Origin: Myxococcota bacterium
Lineage (GTDB): Bacteria > Myxococcota_A > Polyangia > Polyangiales > Houyiibacteriaceae
NCBI GenBank assembly: GCA_028284955.1
Contig: JANQQS010000051.1
Coordinates: forward strand, 1 to 34,275
Reading direction: 5' to 3'
Length of the DNA: 34,275 nt
Shown here: one piece after another, positions 5,579 to 33,738 of the stretch
Position numbering within the stretch: the first letter of the stretch is position 1
How the letters are laid out: each line of letters begins with the position of its first letter
Program-made: the position numbers and the translations under genes
Notes under the pieces: model-generated
Told to the model about the DNA's origin: nothing
Seen by the model: only the letters and a program-made list of their open reading frames with translations
Database searches by the model: none

Positions 5579-6979
5579 CTAGGAACGGCTGCTCGCTGCC
5601 AAAATGCCTCCCGCCGCGTAGATACGCACCAAAGGGTCCTTATCCTGCAGAAGTGGCCTTACTTTCTCTGGCTGCATCGCGTCGCGGGCGAGGGCTCGCG
5701 CGCCAGCTCGCCGGAGTAATCGATCGTCTGAATGGATCGCCTGCTCGAGCACCCGCGTCGCTTCGCGGCTTCCTTCTCGTGCAGTTAGCGCGGCCGCTTG
5801 TAGCCCGGGAAGGTCTGGCTGGTCGAGCAGCCGCACCAAGGCTTCGTCGGCTTCTTCGCGAAATCGTTCGTGCATCCGAAGCGCGTAGGCGATCGCGAGC
5901 AACACGCCGCGGTCGGTCTCATTGCGCAGCGACGAAACCAACGCTTGGTCGACAGCTGGCGAAGGACGGAGCGTGGATAGTGCAATCGCCGCTTGAGATC
6001 GCAATCCTGGAGTGGATGCAACAAGCGCTTGCCGCAGATACGCGCGGGCGATGGTCACACCGTCAGGCATCCCTCCGTCTTCTGCGTCGCGGTCAGACGC
6101 CGCGCCTTCCTGAACAAACGCAATCACACGCGCCGCTTCAATGCCCGCGCGAGACGGCGGGGTGCCCAAAAGCGCACCCAGCGCGCCGATCGCGCGTGCT
6201 CGGTCGGCCTGCACCATGGCTCGAACCGCCGCGAAGCGCACGGCCGCGCTTGAATCGCTGAGTCGACCTCGAAGGACTTCAAACGAATGAGGACCAAACG
6301 TTCCCAATGTCTGCACTGCGGCTTGACGTACGCGGTCGACCGGATCGACGCGCGCGGTCTTTTCGAGCGCCAACACCATCTCTCGGTACGGCTTCGCGCC
6401 CGCCAACGCTCTCGCTGCGGCGCGACGCACCGCAGCCGAGGAATGACCGAGCATCCCCACCAACCGATCGGTTTCTCGACGCGCATCGGCTGCAGAAACG
6501 GCCAGCGCGACGATCTCTGGATCGTCTGATTCGATCATCGAGTACAGGTATGCACGCGCGGTTTTCGATCGCCGCTGAGCAAGAACATGCAGCGCTTTGG
6601 CGCGCGCCACAGTCATTCCCTCGGTTTCCGCAATGCGCTCCAGGACGGGTGATGCAGAAGTGCCGGCAAGCGTAAGTTGAGTCATCGCGGCATCTCGCTC
6701 CGCAAGCGTTTGCCCGAGCGCCGCATGCTCGAGCACAAGCGCCGCGATACGCCCCAACAACTCGTGATTGGTGCCGTCGACCTCCTGATATTGTCGATAC
6801 GCACGCAGCGCGCCTTCCACATCCCGGCGATCCAAAGCACGATGCACCGCCGCGCGAGGGCCAAGCGAGCATGCCCCACCCAGCAAACATGCACAGCCCA
6901 GCAGACATGCACAGCCCAGCAGATATGCACAGCCCAGTCGGCCATCGCGGAGACCAAGCAAGCATGCCCTAGAGCGCAT
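5579..6979 (-). CDS. HEAT-repeat lipoprotein
   Basis: A protein of 466 residues built mostly of HEAT or PBS-lyase-type helical repeats, for example LVGMLGHSSAAVRRAAARAL, VDRVRQAAVQTLGTFG and LSDSSAAVRFAAVRAM, continuing to the C-terminus (KDPLVRIYAAGGILA). Such solenoids bind other proteins. The N-terminus is a basic stretch and then a repeated hydrophobic unit, LGCAYLLGCACLLGCAC, giving several overlapping lipobox-like sites. A lipid anchor is therefore likely, but which Cys is used is not clear. ATG at 6979 is chosen because it directly precedes this signal and lies 17 bases past the stop of the PIN-like gene, on the same strand. The two probably form an operon. No ribosome site is obvious. 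Confidence 0.75.
   Translation of the reverse strand: MRSRACLLGLRDGRLGCAYLLGCACLLGCACLLGGACSLGPRAAVHRALDRRDVEGALRAYRQYQEVDGTNHELLGRIAALVLEHAALGQTLAERDAAMTQLTLAGTSASPVLERIAETEGMTVARAKALHVLAQRRSKTARAYLYSMIESDDPEIVALAVSAADARRETDRLVGMLGHSSAAVRRAAARALAGAKPYREMVLALEKTARVDPVDRVRQAAVQTLGTFGPHSFEVLRGRLSDSSAAVRFAAVRAMVQADRARAIGALGALLGTPPSRAGIEAARVIAFVQEGAASDRDAEDGGMPDGVTIARAYLRQALVASTPGLRSQAAIALSTLRPSPAVDQALVSSLRNETDRGVLLAIAYALRMHERFREEADEALVRLLDQPDLPGLQAAALTAREGSREATRVLEQAIHSDDRLLRRAGARALARDAMQPEKVRPLLQDKDPLVRIYAAGGILAASSRS
6863..6934. repeat. 18-bp tandem repeat encoding repeated lipobox
   Basis: Three near-identical 18-bp units lie at 6881-6898, 6899-6916 and 6917-6934, with a diverged fourth at 6863-6880. 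On the minus strand each adds six residues of the form LLGCAC to the signal peptide of the HEAT-repeat lipoprotein. The period keeps the frame, so copy number can change without disrupting the gene. Confidence 0.85.
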
Positions 6980-6996
6980 GCGTACGCGCCGCGACG

Positions 6997-7407
6997 TCAC
7001 ACGGGCGGAGGAGGCGGCATCGATTGCTCGAGTAGCCACGCCTCGGTCGTCACGAACGTCACCCCGTCGAAAGTATCGAGTTCCTCGAAATCCGGATGGT
7101 CGGTCACGACGCATTTCACGTTCGCAGCTTTCGCCAGCGCCACCAAAGGTTCTTTCCAGCTATCGGGACCATACTCGCCCTCTTCGACGACTTCCACGAG
7201 CTTACGGATGGTGGTCATTTGCGGCCCGATGGCGTCTTCTTTGAACGAATCCAGCCCGCGAAGCATCGCCTCGATTCGCTTCAGAACCCACGCCGACGTT
7301 TTCGCCCGCTGGGGACGACCGAGCACGCGGTTGACGACGTGCTCCGGGGGCGAACCCAGAGCAACCGACGCATTTACGAACACATCCGGTGCAATCACGA
7401 TGTCCAT
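6997..7407 (-). CDS. PIN-domain-like protein
   Basis: A 136-residue protein that looks like a divergent PIN nuclease. The first strand and helix, IVIAPDVFVNASVALG, match the PIN opening (D-T-N-x-x-V-x-A), keeping Asp8, with Val9 where Thr usually stands and Asn12 nearby. The segment KCVVTDHPDFEEL matches the later strand with an acidic residue. PIN proteins are Mg-dependent RNases, often toxins. No antitoxin-like gene is adjacent, so this is not clearly a toxin-antitoxin pair. The C-terminus ends in a Pro run. The start at 7407 is supported by GGAGG seven bases upstream. The gene precedes the HEAT-repeat lipoprotein by 17 bases, so co-transcription is likely, though a link between their functions is not evident. 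Confidence 0.65.
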   Translation of the reverse strand: MDIVIAPDVFVNASVALGSPPEHVVNRVLGRPQRAKTSAWVLKRIEAMLRGLDSFKEDAIGPQMTTIRKLVEVVEEGEYGPDSWKEPLVALAKAANVKCVVTDHPDFEELDTFDGVTFVTTEAWLLEQSMPPPPPV

Positions 7408-7565
7408 CTCATGCCTCCGACGCAGCGAGCATTAAACCAAGTTTTGCCCTCGCGATGCAAATCCTTGGTGAGGGTCGTAAAAGCGAATGGTCGCACTGTA
7501 CGAACGATCGTGCAGGACGCGCGCCGAGGTTGACAGCCTGAGCCGGCCGAGGTTGAGTCCCGCGT

Positions 7566-8585
7566 ATGCGTGCGGTGTGGATCCCCAAATTCGGAAAACC
7601 CGACGTTCTTGAAGTGCGGGAAGCGGCCGACCCGAGCCCGCGCCCCGATGAAGTCCGTATTCGGGTTCGCGCATGCGGGCTGAATTTCGCTGAAATCATG
7701 GCTCGCCAAGGCCTCTATCCCGATGCTCCCAAGCCGCCGATGGTCGTGGGTTACGAAATCGCTGGTGAAATCGACCGGTGCGGCGCGGAGGTAAAAGGCC
7801 TCAAGGATGGGCAGCGCGTCGTGGCGATGGTCCGATTCGGAGGTCATGCCGACATGGTGTGTGCGCCTCAACGCCAAGTGTTTGCCATGCCGGACGACAT
7901 GTCCTTCGAAGAAGGAGCGGCGCTCCCGGTCAACTATCTCACCGCGTATCATATGCTCTTCGAAGTCAAGCGTGTGCGCGCCAATGAACGGGTTCTCATT
8001 CACATGGCAGCCGGGGGCGTCGGCACGGCAGCGCTTCAATTGTGCAAAACCATCGGCGCGGTCACCTTCGGAACCGCGTCCGCGGCGAAGCACGAGTACG
8101 TGCGCTCCCACGGTTGCGACCATCCCATCGACTACCGCTCCAAACACTACGTCGATGAAATAGAAGCGATTGCGGGACGCGCTTCGCTCGATCTCGTGCT
8201 CGATCCCCTGGGGGGTGGAGATTGGCGCAAAGGCTACTCGCTCCTTCGGCCGAGCGGCATGCTGATCGCCTACGGCTGGGCCAACATGAACGTCGGAGGC
8301 AAGCGAAGCATGTTGCGAATCGCGAGAGAGCTCGTCCGCCTCCCGCGCTACACGCCCATCCAGGTTATGGATCACAATCGCGCAGTGGCCGGCGTCAACA
8401 TCGGCCACCTTTGGAACGAGCTACCCATGATCCGACGAGAAACCGAAGCCCTCATGAAGCTCTATCAGCAAGGCAGCATCCGCCCCCACATCGACGCGAC
8501 GTTCCCCTTCTCCCAGGCCGCCGAAGCTCACCACTACCTCGAACGAGGCAAAAACGTGGGCAAAGTCTTACTCATCCCAGAGTAG
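7566..8585 (+). CDS. VAT1-like quinone oxidoreductase (MDR family)
   Basis: A 339-residue medium-chain dehydrogenase/reductase of the zinc-independent quinone oxidoreductase type, closest in feel to VAT1-like proteins. The N-terminal GroES-like fold carries VRIRVRACGLNFAEIMARQG and VVGYEIAGEI. The Rossmann domain has HMAAGGVGTAALQLCK, with the AxxGxxG nucleotide-binding loop, and LVLDPLGGGDW. The C-terminus, AAEAHHYLERGKNVGKVLL, is typical of the family. Expected activity is NADPH-dependent reduction of quinones or activated alkenes in the cytoplasm; the substrate is unknown. It is divergent from the PIN-like gene across 158 bases and is followed by a 17-bp tandem repeat. No co-directional neighbour suggests an operon. 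Confidence 0.9.
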   Translation: MRAVWIPKFGKPDVLEVREAADPSPRPDEVRIRVRACGLNFAEIMARQGLYPDAPKPPMVVGYEIAGEIDRCGAEVKGLKDGQRVVAMVRFGGHADMVCAPQRQVFAMPDDMSFEEGAALPVNYLTAYHMLFEVKRVRANERVLIHMAAGGVGTAALQLCKTIGAVTFGTASAAKHEYVRSHGCDHPIDYRSKHYVDEIEAIAGRASLDLVLDPLGGGDWRKGYSLLRPSGMLIAYGWANMNVGGKRSMLRIARELVRLPRYTPIQVMDHNRAVAGVNIGHLWNELPMIRRETEALMKLYQQGSIRPHIDATFPFSQAAEAHHYLERGKNVGKVLLIPE

Positions 8586-8628
8586 CCCGAAGCACGGAGT
8601 TGCCCGAAGCACGGAGTTGCCTGAAGCG
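8585..8628. repeat. 17-bp tandem repeat after oxidoreductase stop
   Basis: Two perfect 17-bp units (8585-8601 and 8602-8618) and a partial third start at the last base of the stop codon. They sit in the short convergent spacer before the outer-membrane protein gene. Confidence 0.85.
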
Positions 8629-8648
8629 TTCTTGCAGCATCTCGCGAG

Positions 8649-9446
8649 CTATCCAGGTAGCCCGCTGATTCTGATAAACGCCCCCACATTGCTGGTCACG
8701 CCGTCGTAGGTCTCCTCAAGATTCGCGCCGGCGCCGAAAATCCAAGAAACGTTTCCCCACTCCGTGGTCGCGCCGAGGCGCAGCTGCTGGCTAAGGGTCC
8801 AGCCATCATCCCCAAACACGACGCTCGACCTTGAAAATCCGTACCCGAGGGACGTGAACACACCCCATCGCTCGTTGATTTTCGGCTGGTACATGATGGC
8901 GCCTCCGACGCCAATATCGTCTTTTCCTACGGAGGGCTCAATCCAGATCAAAAAGCCATCTGGTCCCAAGTAGAACGCAAACAAACTGCCGCGAACCCAG
9001 GGCCTCACTCCTTGCTCGTTGGTTTCATATCCGGCGAGCACGTTGACCCCGATGTCGATCACGCTGCCCAAGGCGCGGTATCCGAGCCCAGCGTGCCCCG
9101 AACTGCTGGCGTTCCCATCGTAGTCCACCGTGCTCACGGCCCGCATCTGGGTAACCACCACGTCTTGAATGAACAAAAAAAGGTTCAGGTCGGTATAGAC
9201 TTGATTGTGGCCGACCAAGACCTCGCCGTAGTCGAACGCAGCCACTGACGCCGGCGTCAACGTGGCCTGCGCGGTCCACACCGAAGCGCACCACGCGAGG
9301 GCCGTACACCATGAACCCAAGCGGGTCTGGCCGAACCGATTTCGCCGCGAGAAGACCGCCGATCTGCGGTTTCCCATCTCGCGATTCAGACCGCGCCGCG
9401 CGAAGCTCGCCATCCACATCCTCGGCCCGCCCGCTCCCCGCTTCAT
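8649..9446 (-). CDS. Probable outer-membrane beta-barrel protein
   Basis: A 265-residue protein with no recognised family. After about 40 basic residues comes a hydrophobic export-like segment (LGSWCTALAWCASVWTAQA). The rest has alternating aromatic and small residues typical of beta strands: VRGSLFAFYLGPDGFLIWIE, IGVGGAIMYQPKINERWGVF and LGYGFSRSS. It ends in ISGLPG, not the usual C-terminal aromatic residue. A small outer-membrane barrel is the best guess. AGGGGA lies about five bases upstream of the ATG at 9446, which supports that start, but an inner ATG at 9377 would give a more normal signal peptide. It is divergent from the cotransporter. Confidence 0.55.
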   Translation of the reverse strand: MKRGAGGPRMWMASFARRGLNREMGNRRSAVFSRRNRFGQTRLGSWCTALAWCASVWTAQATLTPASVAAFDYGEVLVGHNQVYTDLNLFLFIQDVVVTQMRAVSTVDYDGNASSSGHAGLGYRALGSVIDIGVNVLAGYETNEQGVRPWVRGSLFAFYLGPDGFLIWIEPSVGKDDIGVGGAIMYQPKINERWGVFTSLGYGFSRSSVVFGDDGWTLSQQLRLGATTEWGNVSWIFGAGANLEETYDGVTSNVGAFIRISGLPG

Positions 9447-9560
9447 GGTCCCCTGGTGTACGCCCTAGCAGGTATCGAATCAAGCCGACTCGGGGCACGA
9501 AACATCCAAAAATAGCGCGAACAACACGGATGTTGCGTCACATGGTCGTGGTGTGACACG

Positions 9561-12128
9561 GTGCCCCGAGCCGTGACCGAGCCGCTGACAGCCGACTCCC
9601 CGCGAGCCAGCGCAGGCCGCTTCGGAACGTTTTCGGGAGTGTTTACCCCGAGCATTCTCACGATTCTCGGCGTCGTGATGTATCTCCGGCTCGGCTGGGT
9701 CACAGGACAAGCCGGCCTTGGCGGCACCATCGTCATCGTGGTGATCGCCCACATGATTTCGTTCGCGACCGGCCTTTCTATCGCCAGCATCGCCACCAAT
9801 CGCACCGTGGGCGCGGGCGGCGCGTACTTCATGATCAGCCGCTCCCTCGGCGCGCCGGCCGGCGCCGCAATCGGCATTCCGCTGTTCTTCGCCCAGGCCC
9901 TCAGCATCACGTTCTACATCGTGGGCTTTACCGAATCGGTGATGCCGCTGCTTCCCGAATCGCTCGCGCGATACGTGTCCCCCGTGGCGATGAGCACTGG
10001 AGTCAATGTGCTTCTCACCATGGTGTCGCTCAAGAGCGCCGACCTCGCCATCAAGATGCAGTACTTCGTCATGCTGGCGATCGCGCTCTCGCTCGCATCG
10101 TTCTTCGGGGGCACGACGCCAGAGTTCCCGCGACAGATCGAGTGGATCAACCCTGAGGGCGCACCGTTCGGAACCGTATTCGCGGTCTTCTTTCCGGCCG
10201 TGACCGGCATCATGACGGGCGCGAGCATGTCCGGGGACCTCAAAGACCCCCGGAAAGCCATCCCCACCGGAACCCTCGCGGCAATTTTCGTAGGCATGGT
10301 GGTGTATCTCGGGTTCCCCGTATGGCTGTCGCTGAACTACGACAACGAAGGACTGGTTCGCGACCTCGATTCGGTGTGGAAGATTTCGCGATTTCAGTCG
10401 CTCATCTATGTCGGCGTATGGGGCGCCACGCTATCGAGCGCACTCGGCAGCATTCTCACCGCCCCGAGAACCCTTCAAGCCCTCGCGTGGGACGGCTTGG
10501 TGCCTCGCGTGTTCGGAAAGGGTAGCGGCCCCAACAACGAGCCCCGCATCGGCATGATGTTGTCTTTCGTCATGGCGCAAACCGGCATTCTGCTGGGCAG
10601 CCTCGACGCTATCGCCCCTGTGCTCACAATGTTTTTCCTCGCCACCTACGGCGTCACCAATCTCGCAAGCGGCCTGCAGAAATGGGCCGCGAGCCCCAGC
10701 TTTCGCCCTGCGTTTGCGGTGCCCGCGGGCGTAAGTCTGCTCGGCGGAGTGGCGTGCTTCTACGTGATGAGCATCATCGACTTCGGCGCGATGATTGCGG
10801 CGCTCGTGTTTTGCGCGATCATCTTTCTGATCGCTGAGCGGAGAACGCTCGACACCACCTACGGCGACGCGCGTCACGGTATCTGGGCCGCCCTCGTTCG
10901 AACCGCCCTGCACCGGCTCCGCCGCGTCGAATGGCACCCGCTCAATTGGCGACCAAACTTGGTCATCCTGGGCGGGAACCCGAACAAACGGCCGCATCTG
11001 TTGCACCTCGGCAGCGCGGTAGTTCAAGACCGCGGCCTCGTCACCTATTTCCATCTGCTCAAGGGCACGGTGCGCGACCATGCCAATCTTCGCAACGATC
11101 TCTTCGACACCTACGAACGAAAAATCGCGGAACGGTTTCCCAATGTCTTTTACCGAGTGGACATCGTCGACGATGTCTACCGAGGCACGGTCCAAGTCGC
11201 CCAAAGCTACGGCGTCGGCGGGTTCGAAGCGAACAGCGTGATGGCGGGTTGGCCGCGAAAGACCGAGCGCAGCGAACGGTATGTGCAAATGTGCCGCGAC
11301 CTCGTCGACCTCGACCGATCGCTCTTGCTCGTCAAATACGACGACGACAAGCAGTTCGGCGACGGCAAAGTCATCCACATCTGGTGGGGCGGCTTGCAAG
11401 GAAACGGCGGTTTGATGCTCCTGCTCGCGTATCTCGTGACCGCGCACTACCGCTGGCGCAACGCCAAGGTCAAAGTTCTCACGGTCGTCGCCACCGATGA
11501 AGAAAAGCGCGCCGCCGAAGACAATCTCTCGCGACTTCTTGCCGCCGCGCGACTTCATGGCGAACCGCGCGTGATCCTGCGTCAGGGCAGAAGCATCGCG
11601 CAGATCATGCACGTCGAAAGCGAGCGCGCCGACCTCGCCATCGTCGGCTTTCGCCTTCCCCCCGAGGGCGACCCTGTCGAGCCTTTCTTTCTGCGCATGA
11701 GCGAAATGCTTGCCGAGCTCCCCACCACGATTCTCGTTCACAGCGCACGCAATTTCGAAAGCGAACCGGTGCTCTTCGACAGCGCGACGGCTTCCGTCTC
11801 GTCAACCACCCTGAGCCGCTCGAGTCGACCGCCAAGCTCTTCGCCGGCTCAGGTCATGTCGGGGGCACACCCGCGCGTTCGATCCTCAACCACCGGGACG
11901 GCGACTCCTCCGGAGACAGCCGCTCCCGCCGAAGACACGACCACCGCGGGAATCAGAAAGCGCGAAGACTCGTTCGCGAGCTCCGAGCTCGGTGATTCTG
12001 CAACGCTCTACCTCCGACAACAAAAACTTCCATCGACTCCCGACCACCCAGATTCACCAATCGATGCCGTCGATCCCTCCATTTCATCCCAACGCTTGGA
12101 AATCCCAGACTCAGAACGCGAATCGTAG
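9561..12128 (+). CDS. Cation-chloride cotransporter (SLC12-like)
   Basis: An 855-residue membrane transporter of the APC superfamily, closely resembling the cation-chloride cotransporters (NKCC/KCC), which move K or Na together with Cl across the membrane. The hallmark first helix is FGTFSGVFTPSILTILGVVM followed by YLRLGWVTGQAGLGG. About twelve hydrophobic segments extend to roughly residue 440. A large cytoplasmic domain follows, with RPNLVILGGNPNKRPHLL and later WWGGLQGNGGLMLLLAY, both matching the conserved SLC12 C-terminal region. The last 90 residues are Ser/Thr/Pro-rich and probably disordered. Start is GTG at 9561. It precedes a betaine/choline-type importer on the same strand, which suggests a shared role in ion and osmolyte balance. 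Confidence 0.88.
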   Translation: MPRAVTEPLTADSPRASAGRFGTFSGVFTPSILTILGVVMYLRLGWVTGQAGLGGTIVIVVIAHMISFATGLSIASIATNRTVGAGGAYFMISRSLGAPAGAAIGIPLFFAQALSITFYIVGFTESVMPLLPESLARYVSPVAMSTGVNVLLTMVSLKSADLAIKMQYFVMLAIALSLASFFGGTTPEFPRQIEWINPEGAPFGTVFAVFFPAVTGIMTGASMSGDLKDPRKAIPTGTLAAIFVGMVVYLGFPVWLSLNYDNEGLVRDLDSVWKISRFQSLIYVGVWGATLSSALGSILTAPRTLQALAWDGLVPRVFGKGSGPNNEPRIGMMLSFVMAQTGILLGSLDAIAPVLTMFFLATYGVTNLASGLQKWAASPSFRPAFAVPAGVSLLGGVACFYVMSIIDFGAMIAALVFCAIIFLIAERRTLDTTYGDARHGIWAALVRTALHRLRRVEWHPLNWRPNLVILGGNPNKRPHLLHLGSAVVQDRGLVTYFHLLKGTVRDHANLRNDLFDTYERKIAERFPNVFYRVDIVDDVYRGTVQVAQSYGVGGFEANSVMAGWPRKTERSERYVQMCRDLVDLDRSLLLVKYDDDKQFGDGKVIHIWWGGLQGNGGLMLLLAYLVTAHYRWRNAKVKVLTVVATDEEKRAAEDNLSRLLAAARLHGEPRVILRQGRSIAQIMHVESERADLAIVGFRLPPEGDPVEPFFLRMSEMLAELPTTILVHSARNFESEPVLFDSATASVSSTTLSRSSRPPSSSPAQVMSGAHPRVRSSTTGTATPPETAAPAEDTTTAGIRKREDSFASSELGDSATLYLRQQKLPSTPDHPDSPIDAVDPSISSQRLEIPDSERES

Positions 12129-12158
12129 CGTTATTTTTGCGGTTTCGTTGCCTCTCCT

Positions 12159-12187
12159 TTGACAAACGCACAACCGGCCCACATACG
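12159..12187 (+). promoter_or_regulatory. Possible sigma-70-type promoter
   Basis: A perfect -35 box TTGACA (12159-12164) is followed after 17 bases by CATACG (12182-12187), a poor -10 box. It lies 30 bases upstream of the ABC ATPase start, in the 89-base gap after the cotransporter. Confidence 0.35.
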
Positions 12188-12217
12188 TAGAGAGTTCCTG
12201 CTGTACCGCCCGGACCC

Positions 12218-12976
12218 GTGATTCGCCTGCAACAAGTCACCAAGCGCTACGATGCGTTCACCGCGGTGCACGAATGCTCCCTCCACGTTCGTCAAGGAGA
12301 GCTCCTCGTGCTGCTGGGAGCCTCTGGTTCAGGAAAAAGCACCACGCTGAAAATGATTAATCGGCTGATCGAGCCAACCGCCGGGACGATCGAAATCGAC
12401 GGAACCGACACCCAATCGGTCAACCCGTCGACCCTCCGACGAGAAATCGGCTACGTGTTTCAGGAGGTAGGCCTCTTCCCGCACCTGTCCGTGGAAGACA
12501 ATATCGGCATCACCCCTTCGCTGCTGGGCTGGGATCGCGCGCGCATAAGAGCGCGAGTCAACGATATGCTCGATATGGTGGAGCTCGACCCAGACGGTAT
12601 GCGCAGCCGACGACCAAACGAGCTTTCAGGAGGGCAGAAGCAGCGCGTAGGCGTGGCTCGAGCGCTCGCTGCCCAACCGAACGTGGTGCTTCTCGACGAA
12701 CCCTTCGGCGCGCTCGACCCGCTAACCCGCGACGCCCTACAGCAAACGTTCCAAAAAGTTCGACGAGAATCGGGCATGACCGCAATCTTCGTGACCCACG
12801 ACATGGTGGAAGCCCTCTTGCTCGGGGACCGCATCGGGGTCATGCAGCAGGGACGTCTCGTCCAGCTCGGCCCCCCCGAGGAACTTCTCGAACGCCCCGT
12901 GAACCCCTACGTCGCCGCCCTCATGGACACCCCGCGACGCCAAGCCAAAGCGCTCTCCGATTTATCCGATGCATGA
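12218..12976 (+). CDS. Betaine/choline-type ABC importer, ATPase
   Basis: A 252-residue ATPase subunit of an ABC importer of the quaternary amine uptake family (OpuC, OsmV or YehX type). All motifs are intact: Walker A GASGSGKST (34-42), Q-loop FQEVGLFPH (Gln82), signature NELSGGQKQR (134-143), Walker B VVLLDEP (156-162) and H-loop FVTHDMVEA. The sequence GSGKSTTLKMINRLIEPTAG is typical of this family. Many relatives carry C-terminal CBS domains that sense ionic strength; this one ends soon after the ATPase core and lacks them. Start is GTG at 12218. The gene overlaps the permease-binding protein fusion by eight bases, so translation is probably coupled. Confidence 0.9.
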   Translation: MIRLQQVTKRYDAFTAVHECSLHVRQGELLVLLGASGSGKSTTLKMINRLIEPTAGTIEIDGTDTQSVNPSTLRREIGYVFQEVGLFPHLSVEDNIGITPSLLGWDRARIRARVNDMLDMVELDPDGMRSRRPNELSGGQKQRVGVARALAAQPNVVLLDEPFGALDPLTRDALQQTFQKVRRESGMTAIFVTHDMVEALLLGDRIGVMQQGRLVQLGPPEELLERPVNPYVAALMDTPRRQAKALSDLSDA

Positions 12977-14537
12977 ACTGCTCGCCCGCCTGCCAGACTA
13001 CCTCGGCGGCCATTTAAGACTATCGCTTTCCGCTCTGATCGTCGGGGTCGCGATCAGCGTTCCTTTGGGCGTTTTGGCTACGCGCCGTCGCGCGCTCGAA
13101 TCGCCCCTGTTGGCCATCGCAGGGGTCATTCAGACGGTTCCCGCGCTCGCGATGCTCGCGGTGATGGTACCCGCCCTCGCCATGCTGGCGCTTCCCAGTA
13201 TCGGTTTCCTGCCCGCGTTCCTGGGACTGACGCTCTACAGCATCCTCCCCATTCTGCGAAACACAGTGGTGGGCATTCGCGGAGTCGACCGCGCGATCAC
13301 CGAAGCCGCGCGCGGCGTTGGCATGACACCGTGGGATCGACTGCGCCGCGTCGACTTTCCCCTTGCGCTGCCCGTCATCGTCGCAGGTATTCGCACCGCA
13401 ACCGTATGGACGGTGGGTATGGCGACGCTCTCGACCCCCGTCGGCGCACCGAGTCTTGGCAACTACATTTTCAGCGGACTGCAAACCCGCAACTATCCCG
13501 CCGTCGCGGTGGGATGCGTCGCCGCCGCAGTGCTCGCGCTCAGTCTTGACGGGCTTGTCCGCATGCTGGAGCAAGGCGTCAAGGCAGAACGCCGGTGGCT
13601 CACCGCGGGGGCGACGACTGCGCTCCTCGTGCTCGCCGTGTGGTCCGGCGCGGGTCTGGCATACGGGTCCAACTTTGGCGGAGCGCCAATCAAGATAGGC
13701 GCCAAAACATTTACCGAACAATACATACTCGCCGAAATCATCGGTCAGAAGATTCGCGCCGAGAGCGACCGAGAAGCGCAAGTGTTGAGTTCGCTCGGCT
13801 CTACGGTGGTGTTCGACGCGCTCAAAAACGGCGCGGTCGACGTCTACGTAGGCTACACGGGAACGATCTACGCCAACGTAATGAAACGCGATCCCCAACA
13901 CGTCGACCGCAAGGTTCTCGTGCAGGAAATCGATCACTGGATGCAACAGAATCACGGAATTCGCTGCCTCGGCGCGATCGGCTTCGAAAACACTTATGCG
14001 CTCGCAGTCCGGCGCGACTTTGCAAAAAGATACCGATTGCACACCATCAGCGATTTGGCGCGCGTGCCGCCGAACACCCGCTTCGGAGCTGACTACGAAT
14101 TTTTCGTACGACCAGAGTGGCGCACGCTAAAAGCTTCGTACGATCTTGGCTCTCTTGAGGAGCGAATCATGGATCCAGGGCTGATGTATCAAGCGCTGGA
14201 CGGAGGAGATGTCGACCTCATTACCGCGTACTCGACGGATGGTCGCATCGAGGCCTTCGATGGGGCATTGCTCCGCGACGACCGTTCGGTCTTGCCCAAC
14301 TACGATGCGATACTACTAGTAGGGCCTCAGCTCTTCTGGGACGCACCAGAAGCGGTCGACGCGTTGCGTTCGCTGCTCGGATCGATCGATGCGCGCCAGA
14401 TGCGCCACCTCAATCTTCGCGTCGACGTCGATGGGCGATCTCCCGCGTCGGTAGCCGCTGAATTCCTGGCAAACCAGGCGAAAATCGAGCCCTCGGGTCC
14501 TCCCAAACCATCACCATCGGGATCAAGCGGCCAATAG
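12969..14537 (+). CDS. Betaine/choline-type ABC permease fused to binding protein
   Basis: A 522-residue fusion of permease and substrate-binding domains. Residues 1-205 hold hydrophobic helices and the ATPase-contact EAA loop EAARGVGMTPWDRLRRVDFP. A further helix (about 213-232) leads to the binding domain, which opens with IKIGAKTFTEQYILAEIIGQ, characteristic of OsmF/OpuCC-type betaine and choline binders. Further matches are VDVYVGYTGTIY and VDLITAYSTDGRIEAFDGAL. The domain would face the periplasm or outer membrane leaflet. Together with the ATPase gene this is a complete two-gene importer. The likely substrate is a compatible solute such as glycine betaine, carnitine or choline; which one is not shown. 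The last 20 residues are Pro/Ser-rich. Confidence 0.9.
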   Translation: MHELLARLPDYLGGHLRLSLSALIVGVAISVPLGVLATRRRALESPLLAIAGVIQTVPALAMLAVMVPALAMLALPSIGFLPAFLGLTLYSILPILRNTVVGIRGVDRAITEAARGVGMTPWDRLRRVDFPLALPVIVAGIRTATVWTVGMATLSTPVGAPSLGNYIFSGLQTRNYPAVAVGCVAAAVLALSLDGLVRMLEQGVKAERRWLTAGATTALLVLAVWSGAGLAYGSNFGGAPIKIGAKTFTEQYILAEIIGQKIRAESDREAQVLSSLGSTVVFDALKNGAVDVYVGYTGTIYANVMKRDPQHVDRKVLVQEIDHWMQQNHGIRCLGAIGFENTYALAVRRDFAKRYRLHTISDLARVPPNTRFGADYEFFVRPEWRTLKASYDLGSLEERIMDPGLMYQALDGGDVDLITAYSTDGRIEAFDGALLRDDRSVLPNYDAILLVGPQLFWDAPEAVDALRSLLGSIDARQMRHLNLRVDVDGRSPASVAAEFLANQAKIEPSGPPKPSPSGSSGQ

Positions 14538-30040: not shown

Positions 30041-30802
30041 ATGGCGAGCTTTCCCTGCGCGATCCCCGTCTCACCAAAGTCGCCAACCTGGTTTCTCATC
30101 GGAAGCCTGCTCGTGTGCATCCAGGCGTGTGGCCTCGAAGGCAAGCCAGCCCCGCGCGGGGTCACCAAAACCCCTCCCCCATCCTCTGCGACCCCTGCGC
30201 CTGCAGAAACCGCAACGGCACCGAAGGCCCGCTGGCGACGGACCCAAACCGCTGCCCCTGCCCCAGCCTCCGAAACCGCGAACCCCGACGAAGAACAAAA
30301 GCCCAAACGGGATCTCAACGCCGAGTTGCGCGCATCGTTCGGCGACCCCACGCCGTGTGTATCGTCTTGGCAAGCCGCTCCGCAAAGCACCACCGTTTCG
30401 GTGCAAGCCTGGGTCAACGTATCCGGCGCGGTCTCTCGGTCCAGCGTGTCGTGCCCAGGCGCTCCGGCAGTCGTGCAGCAATGCCTCGAACAAAGGCTAC
30501 GTCAAGTTCGCTTTCGCGGCCCGGTCGACGACGCGCCAACCCTTGCCTCGACGCGCTTCGACGTACTGCGCGACGCGCCTCCAGCTCCAAAGCCCGCTGC
30601 CAAACCTGCTCCTACGCCGCCCCCGACCGCCGTCTCGGGAACCCCGATTCAAGCGCTCCCCTCGCAGGCCCCGCGAGGCGAACAGGGCACGCCGATACGC
30701 GAAGCCCCGTCGGTCGCCGCCCAAGGCAAAGAAACCACCCCCATTTCCGAGCCGACGTCGGTGCCCATCCAGGGCCCGAGCGGCGTGCCCATCGGCCGCT
30801 AG
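30041..30802 (+). CDS. Lipoprotein with TonB-C-like domain
   Basis: A 253-residue predicted lipoprotein: after SPKSPTWFLIGSLLVCIQAC the lipobox Cys30 is followed by a Pro/Ala/Thr-rich linker. Residues about 105-165 (TTVSVQAWVNVSGAVSRSSV then SCPGAPAVVQQCLEQRLRQV) resemble the TonB C-terminal-like domain of myxobacterial AgmX-type proteins. The C-terminal 80 residues are again Pro-rich, with a repeat of TPI and PSV motifs. It probably stays in the periplasm, anchored to a membrane. The role is unknown. The start at 30041 is an ATG right after the ATG-rich segment; no clear ribosome site. It is followed by the ERG2-like gene after 118 bases. Confidence 0.6.
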   Translation: MASFPCAIPVSPKSPTWFLIGSLLVCIQACGLEGKPAPRGVTKTPPPSSATPAPAETATAPKARWRRTQTAAPAPASETANPDEEQKPKRDLNAELRASFGDPTPCVSSWQAAPQSTTVSVQAWVNVSGAVSRSSVSCPGAPAVVQQCLEQRLRQVRFRGPVDDAPTLASTRFDVLRDAPPAPKPAAKPAPTPPPTAVSGTPIQALPSQAPRGEQGTPIREAPSVAAQGKETTPISEPTSVPIQGPSGVPIGR

Positions 30803-30920
30803 CGCGCCACCGCGAGCGTCGTTTGGACAGACCGGGTCTTCCCCTCTAGGGTGCGTCCGCAGTCAACGCGCCCCAGCCGAGCAAATCGGCGTCGCCGGGT
30901 CCACACAGCAAGGTCAACCC

Positions 30921-31481
30921 ATGGGCTACCTATTCGAACCAAAGGTTTTGCACGAATGCGCGAACGCCGGCCTGAACCATCAGGGCGAAGCGATGTTCGA
31001 CGCGGTCACTGAGGAACTCGCGCGTCGTTACCCGGGCCATATCGACACTGGTCCCCGAAAATGGATCTTCAACAACGCAGGCGGCGCGATGGGCCAAATC
31101 GCTATTCTGCATGCGTCGCTATCAGAATACGTTCTGATCTTCGGCAACCCCATCGGCACCGAAGGGCATTCCGGCCGCTATCGAACCGAGGTTCACGACT
31201 TCATGCTCAGCGGCGAAATGTGGTGCTTTCAGGAAGGGCAAACCGAACGCGTGGTCTATAAGCCCGGCGACCACGCCTACCTCGGCCCGAGCGAAGCCAA
31301 AGGTTATCGCGTACCGAGCGACGCGTTCATGCTCGAATACGCCCGCGGCGCGGTACCTACGATGCTCGCGTTTGGCCTCGCCGACACCGTCACCAGCACG
31401 CTCGACCTATCCGTGATGGCCCGAACCCTCGGCGCGTACACGGGCAAAGTCATGCGCTCGCTCCTCCAGGGAAAAATCTAA
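30921..31481 (+). CDS. C-8 sterol isomerase / sigma-1 receptor-like protein (ERG2 family)
   Basis: A 186-residue homologue of yeast ERG2 and the animal sigma-1 receptor. The family signature is intact: WIFNNAGGAMGQIAILHASL then SEYVLIFG and GHSGRYRTE. The acidic residues equivalent to Asp126 and Glu172 of human sigma-1 are present: VHDFMLSGE (Asp93) and MLEYARGAVP (Glu139). It ends LADTVTSTLDLSV and TGKVMRSLLQGKI, again as in ERG2. The N-terminal membrane helix of the eukaryotic proteins is missing. ERG2 moves the sterol double bond from C-8 to C-7. AAGG lies seven bases before ATG. No other sterol gene is in the window, so substrate is inference. Confidence 0.9.
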   Translation: MGYLFEPKVLHECANAGLNHQGEAMFDAVTEELARRYPGHIDTGPRKWIFNNAGGAMGQIAILHASLSEYVLIFGNPIGTEGHSGRYRTEVHDFMLSGEMWCFQEGQTERVVYKPGDHAYLGPSEAKGYRVPSDAFMLEYARGAVPTMLAFGLADTVTSTLDLSVMARTLGAYTGKVMRSLLQGKI

Positions 31482-33183: not shown

Positions 33184-33738
33184 ATGAACGGAGGAATCGA
33201 GACCGAGCGCGTCGAGGTCGACGAAATCATCGAGCTTCTAGGCCTTCGGCCGCACCCTCGAGAGGGCGGCTACTATCGCGAAACCTACCGCAGCGCGGTG
33301 CCTTTTGTCTCCGCCGAGGGTCCCGTAACGCCGCCCGGGATTCGGAGCTCCGCCACCGACATCTACTATCTACTTCGCGCCGGGTCGAAATCACTGCTGC
33401 ATCGGATCAAATCGGATGAACTCTGGCATTTCTATCTCGGCGGGCCGATCACCATCGTCGAGCTGCATCCCGACGGAACGGTAGACGAAGTCGTGCTCGG
33501 GTCATCGCTCCGATCGGGCCAACGACTCAAACACGTCGTGCGCGCCGGAACATGGTTCGGCGCATACACCGAGCACGACACCGGCTTCGCGCTCGTAGGC
33601 TGCACCGTCGTGGCTCCAGGATTCGACTTTCACGACTTCGAAGTCGGCGACCGCCACCAACTCAGCGCGCTCTACCCTCAAGCCTCGACCCTAGTCGAAA
33701 AACTCACCGAACCCGAGTTCTCACTTCACCCCCCATGA
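33184..33738 (+). CDS. DUF985 cupin-family protein
   Basis: A 184-residue protein of the cupin_5 (DUF985) family. Diagnostic parts are LGLRPHPREGGYYRETYRS at the start, TDIYYLLRAGSKSLLHRIKS, ELWHFYLGGPITIVELHPDG and HVVRAGTWFGAYTEHDTGFA, then ALVGCTVVAPGFDFHDFEVG at the end. HRIKSDELWHFY and the Glu/His pattern probably bind a metal and form the double-stranded beta helix. Biochemical function of the family is unsettled; carbohydrate or small molecule binding is likely. ATG at 33184 has a G-rich stretch (GGGGGCGGCG) before it. It is divergent from the SLH lipoprotein across 131 bases, and is the last gene in the window. Confidence 0.9.
   Translation: MNGGIETERVEVDEIIELLGLRPHPREGGYYRETYRSAVPFVSAEGPVTPPGIRSSATDIYYLLRAGSKSLLHRIKSDELWHFYLGGPITIVELHPDGTVDEVVLGSSLRSGQRLKHVVRAGTWFGAYTEHDTGFALVGCTVVAPGFDFHDFEVGDRHQLSALYPQASTLVEKLTEPEFSLHPP

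Follow-up and report, generated by a model that had tools for sequence, protein, structure and literature searches.

An ERG2/sigma-1 family gene in a myxobacterial genome

The window, meaning the whole stretch of 34,275 nucleotides analysed here, is contig C151 of a 6.07-Mb myxobacterial assembly that is 96.6% complete. An open reading frame beginning with the ATG at 30921 was found at exactly the coordinates of a first-pass annotation of this DNA. It encodes the protein that we refer to as P0001, and the features at the locus are as follows.

30910..30913, + strand: AAGG, a ribosome-binding-site-like motif 7 bases 5′ of the ATG (read from the sequence)
30921..31481, + strand: gene for P0001, a 186-aa ERG2/sigma-1 family protein (PF04622), predicted C-8 sterol isomerase without an N-terminal membrane helix
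31191..31199, + strand: P0001 codons 91-93, Val-His-Asp; Asp93 corresponds to human sigma-1 Asp126 and column 91 to human Ile124; fungal ERG2 and the bacterial clades termed acid-91 below have Asp at column 91
31335..31337, + strand: P0001 codon 139, Glu, corresponding to human sigma-1 Glu172 and yeast Erg2 Glu174; conserved in nearly all family members

The first-pass annotation described P0001 as a homologue of ERG2 and the sigma-1 receptor, and our searches bear this out. P0001 matches the Pfam profile PF04622 (ERG2_Sigma1R) with an E value of 8.1e-64 and 215 bits (cut-off 21) over profile positions 22-210 of 210, and phmmer relates it to human sigma-1 (5hk1) at E = 1.2e-39; judged by sequence, the family match is far beyond chance. 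PF04622 is the only Pfam family matched, the EBP domain (PF05241) was not found in the protein, and P0001 is the sole PF04622 gene of its genome. The core motif HASLSEYVLIFG and GHSGRY are both kept, as had been described, and alignment with human sigma-1 agrees with the proposed equivalence of Asp93 and Glu139 to Asp126 and Glu172; it also pairs Tyr70 with Tyr103 and Arg86 with Arg119. The nearest relatives are from Myxococcota (55-66% identity), and the gene has no introns, a GC3 of 0.73 and bacterial neighbours.

In the window these neighbours encode a TerB protein, a truncated globin, a trypsin-like protein and a DUF985 cupin, none of them linked to sterols. The conserved neighbours of window-type genes likewise include none that is sterol-linked, and those that are shared resemble large generic families. 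Just upstream of P0001 lies a gene for a 253-aa proline-rich protein (30041-30802, +) that matches no Pfam family at an E value of 0.01. The second cupin of the window (33184-33738, +; DUF985/Cupin_5, E 1e-45) lies 1.7 kb downstream and gives no sign of relation to P0001.

A sigma-1 fold lacking the N-terminal membrane helix

The AlphaFold model of P0001 (mean pLDDT 89) superimposes on the human and Xenopus sigma-1 structures (5hk1/7w2b) with Z ~25.5 and an rmsd of 1.9 Å over 183 residues, at 38% identity in the structural alignment to 5hk1, and Foldseek agrees with sigma-1 as the fold match. The model has both the cupin barrel and the C-terminal helix pair of sigma-1 and covers human residues 33-218 only. 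The next, unrelated cupins score Z 8.5-9.3; the metal cupins among the matches (Z about 9) were considered as kin and rejected, as they reflect just the common barrel. With these scores and with myxobacterial kin at 55-66% identity, a distant cupin group, raised earlier as an alternative home for the protein, does not fit.

P0001 has no N-terminal membrane helix: the highest 19-residue hydropathy within residues 1-45 is 0.08, compared with 2.24 in human sigma-1, and the in-frame stretch upstream of the start also contains none (0.04). The missing helix had been presented as marking out a soluble bacterial form. Its absence is confirmed, but it is no peculiarity of P0001, since the prokaryotic PF04622 members sampled lack the helix as a rule. 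P0001 would be soluble or peripherally membrane-bound; by analogy with the contact proposed for sigma-1, the pair of C-terminal helices would probably touch the membrane. Should P0001 prove as soluble as expected, work on the family by crystallography, ligand binding and assays would be much easier than with the membrane-bound sigma-1 receptor.

Predicted sterol synthesis in the host

One strand of contig C95 carries a squalene epoxidase/squalene synthase fusion of 1203 residues, SdmB-like and SdmA-like genes, HMG-CoA reductase, a cytochrome P450 and an oxidosqualene cyclase (OSC). The cyclase scores 708 bits to TIGR03463, and the C-4 demethylation pair scores 412 (SdmA-like) and 315 bits (SdmB-like). 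We call the P450 CYP51-like on the strength of 45-62% identity to P450s from other bacterial sterol clusters. An ERG24-type C-14 reductase (E 8e-57 to the solved Delta(14)-sterol reductase 4quv) is encoded on contig C187. The genome therefore holds the set that would make Delta8 sterols (OSC, CYP51 as assigned by P450 identity, C-14 reductase and C-4 demethylation) and is predicted to be able to make sterols. The link to sterol metabolism proposed in the first-pass annotation, which called for sterol genes elsewhere in the genome, is supported by the C95 cluster and the C187 reductase.

No gene for EBP (PF05241), the other C-8 isomerase family, was found in the host genome. With the pathway present, a single PF04622 gene and EBP absent, the C-8 isomerase step is one that P0001 would fill. 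A DHCR7-type second reductase was not found in the genome either, and cholesterol by the usual route is therefore not predicted as the end product; among five genes of the fatty-acid-hydroxylase family, none could be singled out as a C-5 desaturase. The P0001 gene lies on C151, apart from the sterol operon on C95. Scattered sterol genes have been noted in Enhygromyxa salina too (PMC10202945).

Fusion of squalene epoxidase to squalene synthase in an open reading frame of ~1140-1200 aa is seen at L034:8561-12169 (C95), L053:1135-4566 and L066 about 6480-10004, and the middle ~400 residues weakly match terpene-cyclase toroid repeats. In L053 and L066, from two other Polyangia, the fusion order recurs and the ERG2 gene is directly 3′.

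Bacterial ERG2 genes and their distribution

C-8 isomerases had been assigned to the eukaryotic sterol pathway. That restriction does not hold: ERG2-type genes occur in 53 of the 318 genomes of the class, in several phyla and in published bacterial pathways, namely those of sponge symbionts, where ERG2 is part of a bacterial sterol pathway (PMC9531527), and of Calothrix, which has a C-8 isomerization homologue (PMC10202945). A C-8 isomerase or ERG2 homologue is also mentioned for Methylotuvimicrobium (PMC13277303), and Sandaracinus amylolyticus makes lathosterol and cholesterol (PMC12004948), so a C-8 isomerase step exists in myxobacteria. The PF04622 proteins of Calothrix sp. NIES-4105, Enhygromyxa salina and sponge symbionts resemble P0001 in length, in having no membrane helix and in coming from genomes with OSC and sterol genes. 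Bacterial ERG2 homologues are thus known from the literature, and P0001 adds one with receptor-like, not yeast-like, pocket acids.

Within the class, OSC is present in 49 of the 53 genomes with PF04622 and in 65 of the 265 without it (Fisher p about 4e-21, a value inflated by relatedness). Cyclases were called at TIGR03463 < 1e-100, and one fragmentary genome was counted in manually (48/53 without it). A scan of GTDB contigs gave 77 PF04622 loci, in Myxococcota, Cyanobacteriota, Actinomycetota, Pseudomonadota, Acidobacteriota, Chloroflexota, Spirochaetota, Bacillota and Asgard archaea; no relatives were found on viral contigs. The gene lies inside sterol clusters in cyanobacteria, in sponge-symbiont-like MAGs of several phyla and in some Polyangia.

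A pocket acid at either of two positions

P0001 shares with fungal ERG2 the PF04622 domain, the FNNAGGAMGQ core (FVNAGGWMGA in sigma-1), the glutamate at 139 (yeast Glu174) and ~40% identity to yeast Erg2. It differs in lacking the N-terminal membrane segment and in the position of its second acid, which is at 93 in P0001 and at 91 in yeast. In the alignment, Asp126 and Phe128 of yeast Erg2 fall in columns 91 and 93. The Glu174 numbering of the yeast sequence used in the alignment and tree agrees with the literature (PMC8230181). P0001 has Val91 and thus no acid at the column of yeast Asp126; the cyanobacterial members and the member in the L121 sterol operon likewise lack a column-91 acid. 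With sigma-1, P0001 shares the equivalents of Tyr103, Asp126 and Glu172, and it differs in having no transmembrane helix and in coming from a sterol-making bacterium.

All 91 sequences compared have a single acid in columns 91 and 93 (58 at 93, 33 at 91, neither or both in 0). Sequences with the acid at 91 ("acid-91") are yeast ERG2 and two bacterial clades; those with the acid at 93 ("acid-93") are sigma-1, P0001 and nearly all carriers without a detected OSC. The PF04622 proteins of Enhygromyxa and the sponge-symbiont-like MAGs are acid-91, unlike P0001; cyanobacterial members are acid-93 like P0001 but form a separate clade. The two key acids named in the first-pass annotation are therefore present in P0001 and yet do not mark the family, because fungal ERG2 and the two bacterial clades carry the acid two residues earlier and have no equivalent of human Asp126. 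In human sigma-1, Ile124 as well as Asp126 lines the ligand pocket (PMC6017133, PMC6555132), and by this analogy the acid appears to move a single step along one strand and to stay on the same face. We found no description of the 91/93 swap in the literature searched, which is not proof of newness. An acid at either 91 or 93, never both, across the sampled family gives a clean, testable handle on the old isomerase-versus-receptor question in this fold.

On a tree from which columns 91 and 93 were left out, the position of the acid changes 2 times, compared with about 27 in shuffles. The phylogeny with ERG2 and SIGMAR1 that had been called for, in which yeast Erg2 and human and Xenopus sigma-1 were included, gave a placement for yeast and none that is settled for sigma-1. 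Yeast Erg2 sits inside a fully supported, otherwise bacterial and mostly myxobacterial acid-91 clade, and joining it to the P0001 clade is disfavoured (AU p 0.02). Sigma-1 (human and Xenopus; acid-93) is on a long branch without a settled place among the bacterial lineages. Close kinship of animal sigma-1 with the P0001 clade, an idea that came from the shared acid arrangement, was dropped in view of this long branch and of the alternative that joins sigma-1 to the acid-91 clade with yeast, which is not rejected (AU p 0.42).

Acid-93 genes lie in sterol clusters at eight cyanobacterial loci (L064, L067, L086, L090, L094-L096, L105), and in L121, from the same class as the window, an acid-93 ERG2 gene is part of an SdmB-SdmA-OSC-ERG2-C14 reductase operon, with no EBP match in that genome. 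Both arrangements are found in sterol clusters, which argues that an acid at 91 and one at 93 can each support the reaction. The two forms can also coexist in one predicted sterol maker, since G216 (L011, L131) and G217 (L008, L129) each carry one acid-91 and one acid-93 gene. G264 (probably Minicystis rosea), which has an acid-93 gene, was considered as an organism proven to make cholesterol and was dropped because its genome also has two EXPERA/EBP-domain matches.

OSC was not detected in 17 of the 38 sampled acid-93 genomes, incomplete MAGs making single absences provisional, nor in 2 of the 12 acid-91 genomes, both Bryobacterales MAGs with a close sister that has a cyclase beside the gene. 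The loci without a detected OSC that are acid-93 are L050, L058, L054-L062, L077, L083, L085, L081, L087 and L089, and their hosts are termite-gut Bacillota, Mycobacterium, Heimdall- and Lokiarchaeota, Chloroflexi and a spirochaete. Some such carriers keep ERG24-type reductases, directly beside the PF04622 gene in spirochaete L089, and in L081 a Lys replaces the near-universal Glu139. Thus, acid-93 alone does not imply sterol synthesis, and the acid-93 branch may include another function besides isomerase; carriers in which no sterol synthesis was detected suggest a function not yet described.

Predicted function of P0001

We consider it probable, from its sequence and genome, that P0001 carries out C-8 isomerisation (Delta8 to Delta7) of the sterols made by its host, a Polyangia-type myxobacterium, a substrate and reaction that we infer. 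OSC, CYP51, the C-14 reductase and SdmA/SdmB would first yield a Delta8 sterol. Glu139, hydrogen-bonded to a protonated Asp93, would then lie beside rings B and C of the sterol, where a proton added at C-9 and one lost from C-7 would move the double bond from C8-C9 to C7-C8. In sigma-1, Asp126 hydrogen-bonds Glu172, which binds the ligand amine (PMC6017133), and by analogy Glu139 and Asp93 are likely the acid/base pair of this shift.

There are three other explanations for P0001. It could resemble sigma-1 in binding sterols or amines and have no isomerase activity, in an acid-93 lineage of lipid sensors, carriers or chaperones, with the isomerase step absent or performed by another enzyme. The acid-93 arrangement is that of a receptor, and human sigma-1, with the same Asp/Glu pair, is not known to isomerise sterols. 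The acid-93 genomes without a detected OSC, among them Mycobacterium, Asgard archaea and termite-gut Bacillota, fit a binding protein as well, and the location of the gene outside the sterol operon, among genes without a sterol link, counts against an isomerase. Yet the host has the upstream pathway and no EBP, and acid-93 genes lie inside sterol operons of cyanobacteria and L121, so that we regard a pure binding protein as unlikely. We also find it unlikely that P0001 is a member of an ancient acid-93 branch, present in myxobacteria, mycobacteria, Asgard archaea, anaerobic Bacillota and spirochaetes, which has the sigma-1 acids and functions in many hosts without sterol synthesis. If it did, sigma-1-type ligand binding would be a prokaryotic function predating animals, and the shift from 93 to 91 would mark the split of that branch from the ERG2-type isomerases.

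A double-bond isomerase acting on another substrate, from Delta8(14) to Delta7 or to Delta8, would work together with a bacterial 8,14-sterol reductase. Such a reductase, making Delta8(14) sterols, has been described in methanotrophs, and a homologue from Sandaracinus sp. NAT131 was tested (PMC13277303); the NAT131 MAG also carries an acid-93 ERG2 (L071). The host of P0001, on the other hand, encodes a C-14 reductase of ERG24 type, whose usual product retains a Delta8 bond, and we give this substrate little credence. That P0001 is a cupin without sterol function, or a eukaryotic contaminant of the assembly, is highly improbable: the cupin fold is common to many unrelated enzymes, but these score far below sigma-1, and the myxobacterial kin, intron-free gene, GC3 and bacterial neighbours speak against contamination. 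As far as sequence can decide, this last reading is refuted.

A divergent PF04622 gene is present in G167, from the family of the window genome (L116:8549-8998 and 10984-13797). Its flanking genes encode an F420H2-dependent quinone reductase and an MMPL protein that matches a sterol-sensing domain. The genome of G167 is small, with no OSC detected and two ERG24-type reductases.
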